From Halichondria panicea (lineage: Eukaryota; Porifera; Demospongiae; Suberitida; Halichondriidae): a DNA stretch of 64,000 nt. Shown piece by piece: positions 1,010 to 62,730 of this stretch (positions are counted from its first letter, which is position 1; every line of letters begins with the position of its first letter). Below the pieces are notes generated by a model, which had not been told where the DNA came from, made no database searches, and saw only the letters and a list, made by a program, of their open reading frames with translations. Both the position numbers and the translations under genes were made by a program. The DNA lies in NCBI RefSeq assembly GCF_963675165.1, contig NC_087379.1:6596839-6660838 (forward strand), in the 5' to 3' direction.

Positions 1010-1308
1010 CTACGTGTACTTGCTATCTAATAGTGTGACCAAGTCAGTGTGTAGTGGGTCGAGTCTGAGAGTGGAGACAAACTTGTGGTACTTGTGGGGG
1101 TGGTGTTTGACCACACCCAGCAGGGTAGTGTACAGTCTGGTGGCCTTCTCTCTCTTGGTCTCATTCACATACTCGTTGGTTTTCTCAAGAATGGACACAG
1201 TGATGAGCTCAGCTGACAGGAGGTGGAGGGCCAAGGCCTTCGGGTCCTCAGAGAGTGACTGGACTATCTTCTCACTGCAGCTCACCAGCACACTGTAGCC
1301 AGCGTTAC
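1010..1308 (-). CDS. Unit A terminal exon: CARD-like death-fold domain
   Basis: The exon starts in phase 1 after a cag acceptor and encodes about 99 residues to the stop. The pattern is six amphipathic helices: a first helix around EKIVQSL, then ALALHLLSAELIT, ILEKTNEYVNETKREKA, LYTTLLGVVKHH, KYHKFVSTLRL and a last helix LVTLLDS. The spacing of an L-L-x-x-x-L-I turn followed by a charged helix and a final FxxFxxxL helix resembles CARD domains, which recruit caspases or other CARD proteins by like-like contact. It is not the death domain that ends units B, C and D. The CARD call is by pattern only; another death-fold subtype is possible. Confidence 0.6.
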
Positions 1309-4300
1309 CTGCAGGAGAGAGGAAATGGCTAGAGCATGATACGCCCACACACTGGAGACCTAGTTAAGGGGGATCAAGTTAGAGAGACTTTTGCCCCCCC
1401 CCGCTTGGATTTGACTCCCTCTAATTAAAACATGGTATCACGTAATATTACTTTGGGGTTTTGGTGTGCCGCCTCTTAGAGAAATAACTCTGGGCTATTA
1501 TAACCTTGAATGTGTATTTTCCAGAAAACAACCAATTACGCAAGCTTCTTTTGGGAGGTCATTTTAGAAGGTCATACGTAACTTCAAGAATTAAAAATTA
1601 AAAATATGAATTCTGTACCAGTCCGTACAACACTAGTTAAGGCATATCACTTGACAAAGTTCTGGGAGGATCCAAAAACTGTCCATTTCAACAAAAGACC
1701 ATAGGCTAAAATTATTAGCATAAAAACGCTGCTAGCTTCTTTCAGGATGTCATAACTTCACTGAAAATCTCAATACAAAACTAAGAAACGCATTCTGTAT
1801 CTCTAGATAAGGCAGGGTTTTGGAAAGAGCAAAAAAATGCAGAAAACCTTTGTTAATTTCAGAGGAAATTAGGTTTTTGCTTCCCTACCATTTGGATTTG
1901 GTTTGCCCCTCTCTGAATTAAACTCACCACTAACTCCACTGAGTGTGTGGATGTCCCTGAGTAGACAGTCCACAGCTCTCAACAGATTAGCTCCATTCTC
2001 CACCAGGTCAACAAGAGCAGCTGTCTCCTCTGACTGGTCTGTACCATTGAGAATGAGAGCTAACACTTGATATCATAAACACACGTTCTCACCTTCTTGA
2101 CAGTTTCTCAGTTTGACCTTAGCCACCATACAAAGCTGGTGAGATAAAGTCTCCATCTTAGAGAGACTGGCTCCCATGTTCTCACTGATGCTCTGTACTG
2201 TACACTCCTCGACAACCCTCCTGGTCACTACAAGGACAGATGCTATCTCTGTCCGTATGGAGTCAGTGTGGTCTGTCACCTCACTCAGAGAAGATGCCCT
2301 TTAGAAAAAAAACGATAATCAGACTTCCACTAGACAATTGAGTGGTACCTCAGAGCAGCAGTCATTCTCTCCATCAGAGACACTACACTCTTCACAGTAA
2401 AGCCAAGTTGTGTGTCACTCACTGCCAGGGCAGACCTTCTCAACTCATCAGTGGCCTCCTAAACAAATTGGAATGATACTTAACTACAATGTACATTGTA
2501 AACAAAAACTGTGTGTGTATTAATAAACTTATACATGACTGTACAAGTTGAATCAACTAATCTATATCAAAATGGTAAAATTTAGTTTGCCAAAGGTACC
2601 CACTACACCATTTCAAGAGGTAACACTGTACAAACGTGAATACCTGTAGTTTAGTAGTATCCACAGCAACTTTGGGGGTGAGTGCTGTCAATGGTATGTA
2701 AAATTCGACCGGTGGCAGGAGTCCAAACAAGGAGATGGTAAAAGTGGTTCTCTTGGGAGCATTCTCCTCAGGGAAGAGCCTGCAGATTATCCTGGGAGGG
2801 TAGTTGTGGATATCCTCAGGTCTGAACTTCTCCACCTCAGGCTTATCCACTTCACTATGTGATATCTAAAAAATGAAGAGGATTTTAAGAGTGTGACCAA
2901 AGTCACATTTTACCAATTTCTTGTCTGGTTCCACAGACCATCCCTGCACTGGGTGAATGTTGAGAGTGGCACACATATCAACAAACGTCAGTGATTCTTG
3001 AGTCGTCCTGTCAGCCACTTCTCTCGACACATTGGGATAGTCTCGTGGGATTATCACTTTATCAAGTGTCTCTAGAAACTGTAGATTTAGATACATAAAA
3101 TGAGCACACTTCAATTGAGCAATCTTACCTTAGAGTATAAGCTCCCACAGAGACTGGCTACAATGATGGCTAGCCTGTCCTCAGTTGTGTGTGGAGGAGA
3201 CCGGTAGACTCTGACAGTGTAGAGGTTAGGTGGACTCTCAGGCTCTGGGGGGTCATCAGACTGGCTGGCAGCAAGTTGGGATGAACCTGCAACAAAAGCA
3301 TGTCACCCACACTACAAACACATTCCTTATACACTCACCTCTAAACCATTTCTTTCTTCGAGTTCCAAAACCAGAACGTTCCTTTATTCTATTTCGAAAA
3401 CCAACTTTAACGAATTTCTTCTTTGACAAACGTCTGGTCAGTCTCCCAGTGTTCCCTCCAGGAGTAAACTCTGCCTTCGACCCTCCCTCTTGTACCTCCT
3501 GGTACTTGTACACATTTATTGATCCAGATTTCTTCGGAGACGAGTCAGCTTGGAGAAAGAGGAGGTCATCAGCTTCTTGTTGGGTGGACACTCGTACATG
3601 ATGCTCCATGCTCAGGGTCACCTCTCCGTTTAGACCTTCACCAGAGATCAAGTAGGACGGACTGGCTGATCGAATGCCCTCAGGCATCACAAACACATCC
3701 TTGGGTGCAAGGCTGGGTTGGACTTTAATGCTCACAGAGGTCCCTGCTGGGACAGCATTAGCTGGAACAGTCACTTGAACTCCATTGTCAAAGTCAGCAA
3801 GGCCACCACTGGAGGTGAACTCCTTCTCTTGAGGCTCGCCAAAAAAAGTGACATCAGGGTGTGCGGAGGTTTGGTGCAGGGGATCTACACAGGAGGTAAA
3901 ACACACAGAACCATGTGCTGGATACAGCACAAGCACACACTTACATCCAGGTGGTGTGTAGAGGGTTTCCCCTGCTGCCTTGTTCTGGTAGACTGGCTTC
4001 TTCCTAAAGTTGACTCACATTCATAAAGCTAGTGACTCAACTGTGCAATAGTCACTCACGTTTCTGTGTCAGTAACGACAGTCCAGTTCTTGGGTAGGAC
4101 TGGAACAGACTGCGGACGTGACTGAGTGTGTGTGTGTGTGTGTGTGTGGGGGGGGCACATGTAATGGTATTCATGCTTGTTTGGGTGGGTGTAATTAACC
4201 CGAGGCGCGTAGGCGGCCTCGGTTACAGTAGTCTGTCAGTCTGTCTGTGTGTGTGTGTCTGTCTGTCGCTCAGTTTGACTTACCTGGTGATAGCCTCGAT

Positions 4301-62000: not shown

Positions 62001-62730
62001 GTGTGTGTGTGTGTGTGTGTGGGGGGGGGTGGGCACATGTAACAGTATTCATGCTTGTTTGGGTGTGTGTAATATTGAAACTGTAGTTTGCACTCCATAC
62101 AGTTAATGGACAGTATTGAGCTTATGATCTTAAATTGTCAAAATAGCAAAATACTCGTAAAAAAGAATGTTTATTCGATGTACATATAATAATGTATGCA
62201 CTATTTAATTATTCGGCACAATAAACTAAAACACCATCATGATCATGCAGTGTGTGCATTATTGAGGTATGGACTCACATGTGATTCAGTAGCTTCTTCA
62301 AGGAGCTTTATTGTTGAAGGGTTAGAGTAATGTGAACTCTTGGCCTCCATCAGAGCAGTCTGTCCACGCTGTGATGATGATCATATGAAGGGATGAGATG
62401 TACATTGTAAGAGGTAAAGTGGTGTAATGCGTATGACATGTACTTTGCTGACAGAGCAATACTGGCAACGGTAATTGCATATTAAGAGGTCGGGTATTTC
62501 TGTTTAGGTACAAATGACAGCTCTGTTCAGTCATTAACTAGTGTAAGAGGTATAGGTGTACAGTACATGTAAAGCTGTTTGTTAAGTATAACTATGCAAC
62601 TATATGTACTCTATAAAGTGCATGTGCTCACATTATCAGTGCAGAAAGGGGAAGCCCCTGATGAGAGAAGCTCCTTCACAGTATCTTCACGTCCCCAGTA
62701 GGCTGCTACCATGAGTGGAGTGTCCCCATC
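58732..62730 (-). CDS. Unit D: ankyrin-ZU5-helical-death-domain protein (5' end beyond window)
   Basis: Exons in transcript order within the window: 62632-62730 (ankyrin), 62279-62368 (last ankyrin-like), linkers 61899-61960 and 61784-61842, ZU5 61234-61725, UPA-like 61059-61171, 60844-61008 and 60569-60790, helical 60061-60170, 59802-60004 and 59637-59774, death domain 58732-59054. They sum to 2076 nt (691 aa and a stop), in frame. The helical and death exons are B-like, while the UPA-like exons are A/C-like, so the gene is a mosaic. Confidence 0.82.
60061..60170 (-). CDS. Unit D first helical exon (B-type)
   Basis: [20 protein letters not shown] as in unit B. Confidence 0.75.
60569..61842 (-). 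CDS. Unit D linker, ZU5 and UPA-like exons (A/C-type)
   Basis: Linker 61784-61842; ZU5 61234-61725 ([19 protein letters not shown]); 61059-61171; 60844-61008 (VIIPRDYPNVSREAADRTT, as in unit A); 60569-60790 (PEVEKFRPEDLHNYPP). Confidence 0.8.
61965..62022. repeat. (TG)n microsatellite at a splice acceptor
   Basis: About 55 bp, same site as in A, B and C. Confidence 0.95.
62279..62368 (-). CDS. Unit D last ankyrin-like exon
   Basis: RGQTALMEAKSSHYSN, then [13 protein letters not shown], 90 nt. Confidence 0.75.
62632..62730 (-). CDS. Unit D ankyrin exon (DGDTPLMVAAYWGRED)
   Basis: 99 nt, phase 0, ends [14 protein letters not shown]; the most upstream exon of D in the window. Confidence 0.8.

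Follow-up and report, generated by a model that had tools for sequence, protein, structure and literature searches.

We analysed a window of 64,000 nucleotides (nt) from the sponge Halichondria panicea (contig NC_087379.1, positions 6,596,839 to 6,660,838), which carries four paralogous genes, here called A to D, that encode ankyrin repeats, a ZU5 domain and a C-terminal death fold. The system reaches beyond the window: this species has about 40 genes of the family. We think it likely that these ankyrin-ZU5 proteins, which are probably cytosolic, form a young and expanded family in which the last exon serves as an exchangeable signalling cassette. The tails concerned are a CARD exon and two Death exons, termed DD1 and DD2. 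Bodies that are nearly identical from the ZU5 exon to exon E11 end in different death-fold exons, joined through a phase-1 donor. The distribution of tails on the ZU5 tree indicates that there have been at least five replacements between CARD and DD1, and DD2, which is in phase 1 at both ends, can sit at the same position as the other tails.

Near-identical bodies with different tails

We identified four pairs of genes with near-identical ZU5 exons and different tails, two of which are clean. The DD1-ended locus L082 and the CARD-ended locus L085 share 97.4% identity over 2512 alignment columns that begin at the ZU5 exon and extend deep into the last intron, after which the tails differ. Similarly, L096 (DD1) and L099 (DD2) are 97.3% identical over 2265 columns, to just past E11, and L022 against L061 gave 95.7% over 1380. 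In addition, we made pairwise comparisons of 14 CARD loci, seven of which have an ankyrin-ZU5 body and the other seven different sequence upstream. Their median identity, in the measure used by our script, was 0.10-0.12 at positions -400 to -150, 0.88 at -50 to 0, 0.86-0.95 within the exon and 0.25 at +347 to +447, after the stop codon. The breaks lie in the last intron.

The CARD and DD1 cassettes have in common an intronic stretch of 50-100 nt just before the acceptor, which we refer to as the adapter; part of it, as found before DD1, is 82-94% identical in one comparison and 88-94% identical in the genome search described next. A genome search with a 99-nt adapter query returned 50 candidates, 40 of which were scored. 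Thirty-eight of these matches precede a CARD or DD1 exon by no more than 140 nt, and the other two are pieces that lie about 0.9 kb upstream of a CARD. Because none of the 40 scored copies is further than 1 kb from such an exon, the idea that the adapter is a common dispersed repeat was not supported. The adapter would offer homology for unequal recombination or gene conversion, which could swap tails without harm to splicing or reading frame. Tails would then pile up in tandem, and old copies may decay or become alternative last exons.

Tail type and body phylogeny

The ZU5 exon has 42 matches in the genome, which gave 40 loci when the second C16 piece and a weak C2 match were dropped; the C27 duplicate and the first C16 piece were additionally left out of the trees. 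Each locus was labelled with the nearest downstream death-fold exon on the same strand. The first tree held 38 rows, including 5 loci without a clear tail, the second the 33 loci with clear labels (15 DD1, 12 CARD and 6 DD2), and the third the 27 loci left without the 6 DD2 loci. When terminal-exon type was compared with ZU5 phylogeny, the tail types did not form single clades: the 33-gene tree requires at least 12 changes among the three states, and the approximately unbiased (AU) test rejected a single clade for CARD (p = 1.8e-5), DD1 (p = 7e-69) and DD2 (p = 1e-126). Since RefSeq models place DD2 inside the protein, the count was redone with CARD and DD1 alone. At least 5 switches were required in the 27 genes, also when forced by well-supported branches alone, and one CARD clade was rejected on this tree (AU p = 1.4e-74).

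Gene organisation in the window

Genes A to D lie on the minus strand and, in models built exon by exon, follow one common layout (Table 1). After the ankyrin exons come three short exons, the ZU5 exon, exons E6-E8, exons E9-E11, which are probably helical, and the last exon. Every modelled intron is GT-AG, and the assembled coding sequences of all four genes are multiples of three with a terminal stop and no internal stops, gene D being checked from its last ankyrin exon onward only. The four paralogues that had been proposed, with one layout and exon lengths summing to a clean frame, are therefore real. The further expectation that all terminal exons are entered in phase 1 from a matching donor also held, since the E11 donor is in phase 1 in all four genes and the acceptors of the CARD and DD terminal exons are in phase 1 as well. 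Similarity searches located 24 ankyrin exons, each of them 99 nt long, open, flanked by AG and GT and in phase 0, with one repeat per exon. Repeat number can therefore change without loss of frame, and it does vary as had been suggested, with 11, 7 and 5 ankyrin exons in genes A, B and C. Gene D has one ankyrin exon in the window (62730-62632) and 9 further ankyrin-like matches in the next 10 kb (L010). Position 1010 is the exact end of the gene A stop codon and 62730 the exact start of the last ankyrin exon of gene D. By-eye comparison indicates that RefSeq models of E3, E7 and E11 take other in-frame acceptors, so that our modelled 5' ends may be 9-21 nt off.

The RefSeq protein P0015 matches the ZU5 of gene A at 100%. 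Pfam ZU5 (PF00791) scored 23.8 bits in the full protein of gene B, above the cut-off of 21, and fell below it in the full protein of gene A (19.0 bits) and in several RefSeq proteins. Of the proposed ZU5-UPA-death module, ZU5 and the death fold were found by Pfam or by fold, and UPA had no Pfam match in the full proteins scanned. Neither the ZU5 profile nor P0007 gave any match when compared with solved structures. Proteins A and B had no Pfam match to NACHT or LRR families at E values up to 0.5 and are thus not classed here as NLRs. There was no Rfam match at the gathering threshold and no tRNA.

Several features of the bodies were also observed. The ankyrin array of gene A contains a 4-kb segmental duplication (10208-14177 and 17771-21780, minus strand, 94.6% identity), which is the likely source of its longer array. 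Exons E6-E8 occur in two diverged versions under similar ZU5 exons (E7 35-38% or 72-89%, and E8 51% or 82-90%, identical to gene D), and by these identities the middle of the body appears to be mosaic too. Exons E9-E11 of genes A to D gave weak Pfam Vinculin matches below the cut-off, the best of them (1.1e-4) in P0021, and a vinculin-like bundle between ZU5 and tail is possible.

Identity of the terminal exons

The terminal exon of gene A had no match to Pfam CARD (PF00619), which matches 5 of 28 homologues of this exon (best 2e-6). It has a predicted six-helix CARD fold, and a confident structure model matches solved CARDs; on this modelling we assign it as a CARD. With Pfam Death (PF00531), the terminal exons of genes B and D and the extra exon ending at 42161 scored above the 22.6-bit cut-off and that of gene C below it. 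The proposal of one CARD-ended and three Death-ended genes was therefore upheld, with CARD recognised by fold and Death by Pfam (B and D above the cut-off, C weak), and the terminal exons fall into two domain families rather than one. The Pfam comparison suggested at the outset succeeded for Death in B and D; it was weak for C (15.6 bits) and gave no match for the CARD of gene A. Both DD2 exons scanned fall below the Death cut-off (20.0 and 17.1 bits against 22.6). Comparison of the DD1 profile with the PDB gave repeat-protein matches only, with no stretch passing on its own, and was not used.

The original prediction had overlooked three further death-fold sequences: the extra DD1 exon at 42487-42161, a broken CARD at 36683-36320 and a DD fragment at 48147-47956. 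The first of these lies 1.2 kb downstream of a protein kinase exon with a phase-1 donor and is used by RefSeq isoform X4 of gene C (P0008). A 1-kb stretch is repeated at 94.6% identity at 37546-38589 and 46633-47683, and similar sequence occurs upstream of distal CARD exons (L012, L016); the stretch may indicate the place of duplication of downstream CARD cassettes.

Table 1. Features of the window, with positions counted from its first letter
Feature	Position	Strand	Remarks
Gene A	21953-1010	-	23 exons, 1074 amino acids (aa); RefSeq LOC135333882; 11 ankyrin exons, ZU5, probably helical exons, CARD terminal exon
ZU5 exon, gene A	3339..3884	-	Pfam ZU5 21.7 bits for the stretch 3259-4014, cut-off 21
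Intronic adapter before CARD exon, gene A	1309..1362	-	Also found in DD1 cassettes
CARD terminal exon, gene A	1308-1010	-	Phase-1 acceptor
Gene B	36125-27467	-	19 exons, 930 aa; RefSeq LOC135333886 (P0002); 7 ankyrin exons, ZU5, DD1 terminal exon
ZU5 exon, gene B	30676..31185	-	PF00791 genome search and gene model
DD1 terminal exon, gene B	27789-27467	-	Pfam Death 5.6e-7
Broken CARD cassette, frameshifted	about 36683-36320	-	95% nt identity to gene A CARD
Extra DD1 terminal exon	42487-42161	-	Pfam Death 1e-4, 22.8 bits against cut-off 22.6
Protein kinase exon	43713..44561	-	Pfam Pkinase 2.5e-36; inside distal intron of gene C isoform X4
Open frame with 3' fragment of DD1 exon	48147-47956	-	
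Gene C	56768-48341	-	17 exons, 841 aa; RefSeq LOC135333939 (P0008); 5 ankyrin exons, ZU5, proximal DD1 exon 48660-48341
ZU5 exon, gene C	50706..51197	-	Gene model
DD1 terminal exon, gene C	48660-48341	-	Phase-1 acceptor; Pfam Death weak, 15.6 bits
Gene D	62730-58732, extends upstream past 64000	-	12 exons inside window
ZU5 exon, gene D	61234..61725	-	Gene model
DD1 terminal exon, gene D	59054-58732	-	Pfam Death 3.8e-7

The family across the genome

Close relatives of the CARD exon, counted as matches of at least 67% identity after merging of second pieces, were found in 37 places in the genome, at least 7 of them partial or broken (6 of the 37 flagged, plus L039). The close DD1 exon was found in 23 places and DD2, which is about 35-42% identical to DD1, in 18 places at 85% or more. 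DD2 is a symmetric exon: in all six examples examined, its acceptor is in phase 1 and is followed after 333 or 342 nt by a donor in the same phase. More distant Death exons are numerous, as judged from the best 150 of 587 and the best 150 of 645 candidates, and gene-level counts are lower bounds since the search scores the best candidates only. Protein searches returned 20, 20 and 19 relatives, overlapping and all from H. panicea; the method needs exact shared five-residue words, so that distant relatives in other species could escape it.

Over 27 of 30 CARD loci, the ratio of nonsynonymous to synonymous substitution rates (dN/dS) was 0.36, the broken L039 and the near-duplicates L019 and L025 being left out, and intact CARD copies are under constraint. 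Synonymous divergence (pS) is mosaic along the exon, being high in codons 16-60 (0.31 in codons 31-60) and low in codons 61-90 (0.066), as expected where conversion tracts cover parts of an exon. Positive selection in the middle of the CARD was not supported, because synonymous divergence rises there too.

Other bodies with the same tails

We also found a second gene type that carries the same CARD and DD1 tails behind a very long exon and a Death domain (Pfam 4.2e-5 on a reading joined by eye). At one locus, L138, the long exon upstream of Death has no Pfam match and contains what we take to be GTPase-like motifs. In this second family, the CARD-ended loci L025, L026, L035 and L037 and the DD1-ended loci L044, L045, L048 and L051 share their upstream kilobase. 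In two CARD/DD1 pairs, L035 and L037 are about 92% identical to L048 and L045 over about 1080 nt of upstream sequence. In addition, the RefSeq protein P0021 has a PH domain where the ankyrin array would be.

A kinase family may follow the same pattern, although the evidence is weak and we keep it as a lead only. The kinase exon at 43713-44561 belongs to a very large genomic family (best 137 of 735 candidates scored). A fixed kinase-Death gene at 44561-42161 was considered and weakened, since in P0008 the DD exon concerned forms part of gene C. The phase-1 donor of the kinase exon is good, and use of the DD exon by both a kinase-Death gene and gene C is possible. Kinase relatives on C1 have in common about 1 kb of downstream sequence (96% mutual identity, 78-79% to the window), followed by different death-like exons; one of these matches Pfam Death weakly (0.089), and the other has no match and, by eye, a frame that fails from that donor. 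Two kinase relatives on C5 have DD2-like exons within 0.5 kb downstream.

Alternative explanations

Several observations weigh against an exchangeable last exon. The CARD and DD1 labels are clearly clustered on the tree (mean of 9.1 switches in shuffled labels, with 0 of 500 shuffles as low as 5), and the three-state labels slightly so (shuffled mean 14.5, as low as observed in 22 of 200). The figure of 12 changes may be too high because it treats DD2 as a tail, and gene conversion of ZU5 itself could inflate the switch counts. Two of the four sibling pairs are complicated by differences in the body, E9-E11 being absent before DD2 in L087/L088 and the sequence before E10 being rearranged in L073/L076, and these support mosaicism rather than a clean swap. 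Part of the adapter was found before only 1 of 6 DD2 exons, and dN/dS at the 3' end of the CARD is 0.90. The RefSeq entries are predicted models, and two of these, P0004 and P0012, appear to take their tail from beyond a neighbouring gene and may be wrong. All three RefSeq proteins that contain DD2 have it internally, with either CARD or E9/E10-like exons after it, which weakens the reading of DD2 as a plain last exon. Finally, a role of these proteins as signalling receptors in immunity or cell death is putative. Considering the switches and the clustering together, a tail passes down with its body for some time before another takes its place. The claim that sensing and output parts vary independently is thus partly supported, by at least 5 switches in 27 genes, but not in full, since CARD and DD1 are clustered on the tree.

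A broader reading, which we put forward tentatively, is that the tails are mobile across the genome. Here CARD, DD1 and perhaps DD2, behind the adapter, would recombine among at least two unrelated sensor families (ankyrin/PH-ZU5, GTPase-like-Death and perhaps kinases), and alternative splicing of last exons would add to this, coupling one sensor to different pathways between or within loci.

Alternative last exons offer a possible though rather doubtful account, in which an ancestor held DD1, DD2 and CARD in tandem, splicing chooses among them and the present differences reflect differential loss. More than one death-fold exon, broken copies included, was found at 17 of the 40 ZU5 loci (same strand, within 25 kb and before the next ZU5), as this account expects, although some of the extra tails belong to the second gene family. 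The 20 RefSeq proteins end in CARD (10), DD1 (7), E9/E10-like exons after DD2 (2) or another short end (1). Among them, P0018 and P0019 come from a single gene, and the two isoforms differ at their ends, one being a CARD that lies about 25 kb downstream of the ZU5 exon and the other the short end; P0008 omits four ankyrin exons and the proximal DD1 of gene C and ends in the DD1 exon at 42487-42161; and P0003 reads E11-DD2-CARD. However, differential loss leaves unexplained why one cassette occurs in unrelated backgrounds (ankyrin-ZU5 and GTPase-like-Death) with high identity only in or beside the cassette, and why DD1 and CARD sit at the same position behind the same adapter.

It is unlikely that the tails stay put while gene conversion homogenises the ZU5 body, so that the tree conflict would be an effect of the body. 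The mosaic synonymous divergence within the CARD exon (0.31 against 0.066) and the two versions of E6-E8 under similar ZU5 exons indicate that conversion or recombination is active in the family. Nevertheless, the two clean pairs are about 97% identical through their introns from ZU5 to E11 or beyond, and if a conversion tract stops at that point, a tail has effectively been exchanged. Least probable is a cluster that arose by plain tandem duplication, with its domains sorted by lineage to no functional effect, and that is now drifting and in part pseudogenised. The CARD and DD exons that are broken (36320-36683; L039, L052 and L059) and the 6 of 37 CARD places that are partial or broken, 7 with L039, would fit this reading, but the intact CARD exons are constrained, all four window genes have clean frames and RefSeq models exist for A, B and C.

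Two other observations concern the surroundings of the genes. A 561-bp tandem repeat with 100% identity (40090-41207, plus strand) lies inside a gene that by eye reads like an NmrA/SDR-type oxidoreductase, and is either a very recent duplication or an assembly artefact. Just upstream of the first exon of gene A is a 482-aa open frame (22719-24164, minus strand), with no Pfam match above the cut-off.

Comparison with known systems and significance

PIDD, UNC5 and the ankyrins are ZU5-UPA-death proteins, and the ankyrins also have ankyrin repeats. The H. panicea proteins resemble them in combining ZU5 with a C-terminal death fold, but PIDD, UNC5 and the ankyrins are encoded by one or a few genes and their Death domain is fixed, and UPA was not detected in the H. 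panicea proteins scanned. We know of no CARD-tailed sibling series among them. By likeness to these families, the ankyrin array would bind a ligand or partner, the ZU5 region would restrain the tail, and a freed CARD or Death domain would nucleate a homotypic complex with a matching adaptor. On such a scheme, a tail swap would rewire which death or inflammatory pathway a sensor feeds.

In the passages available of a report on the demosponge Dysidea avara, NLRC and NLRD repertoires carry CARD or DEATH as alternatives, and the categories are distinct phylogenetic clusters (PMC12909245). The likeness lies in large demosponge families with alternative death folds. However, the D. avara proteins have a NACHT-LRR body and an N-terminal death fold, in contrast to the ankyrin-ZU5 body and C-terminal death fold of H. 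panicea, and the D. avara types form separate clusters whereas each tail type in H. panicea arose several times on the body tree. The zebrafish NLR-B30.2 genes, according to the parts available of PMC4852459, number hundreds of immune genes with single-exon domains, exon shuffling and partial gene conversion, all of which recall the family described here. In zebrafish the N-terminal peptide repeats and C-terminal B30.2 are shuffled or converted and death folds are tied to groups, whereas in H. panicea the death-fold output is exchanged. The brown-algal ROCO genes have sensor repeats that are shuffled and alternatively spliced; the LRR sensor varies, with no swap of the output domain reported in the abstract (PMC11378527), whereas in H. 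panicea the output domain swaps. In searches of the open PubMed Central (PMC) literature, which left subscription papers and bioRxiv outside, none of the listed titles or openings of abstracts dealt with this family or with tail swapping in sponges, and the available passages of PMC12345144 hold nothing on this family.

In H. panicea, most pattern-recognition receptor genes are expressed in an individual-specific manner, and ankyrin-repeat proteins occur in lipopolysaccharide-response networks, as described in the available passages of PMC8242945. Tail swapping may bear on such individual-specific receptor expression, although those passages do not name this family. Exon shuffling in immune repertoires is known, and repeated swapping of the output domain appears unusual. 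As a rule, immune repertoires diversify their sensors while the output stays constant. It is the output that recombines in the H. panicea family, where bodies can be almost the same. Such a natural series of matched bodies with different death-fold tails would test whether the tail alone sets signalling specificity, and the same series could show how an animal without adaptive immunity diversifies its responses.

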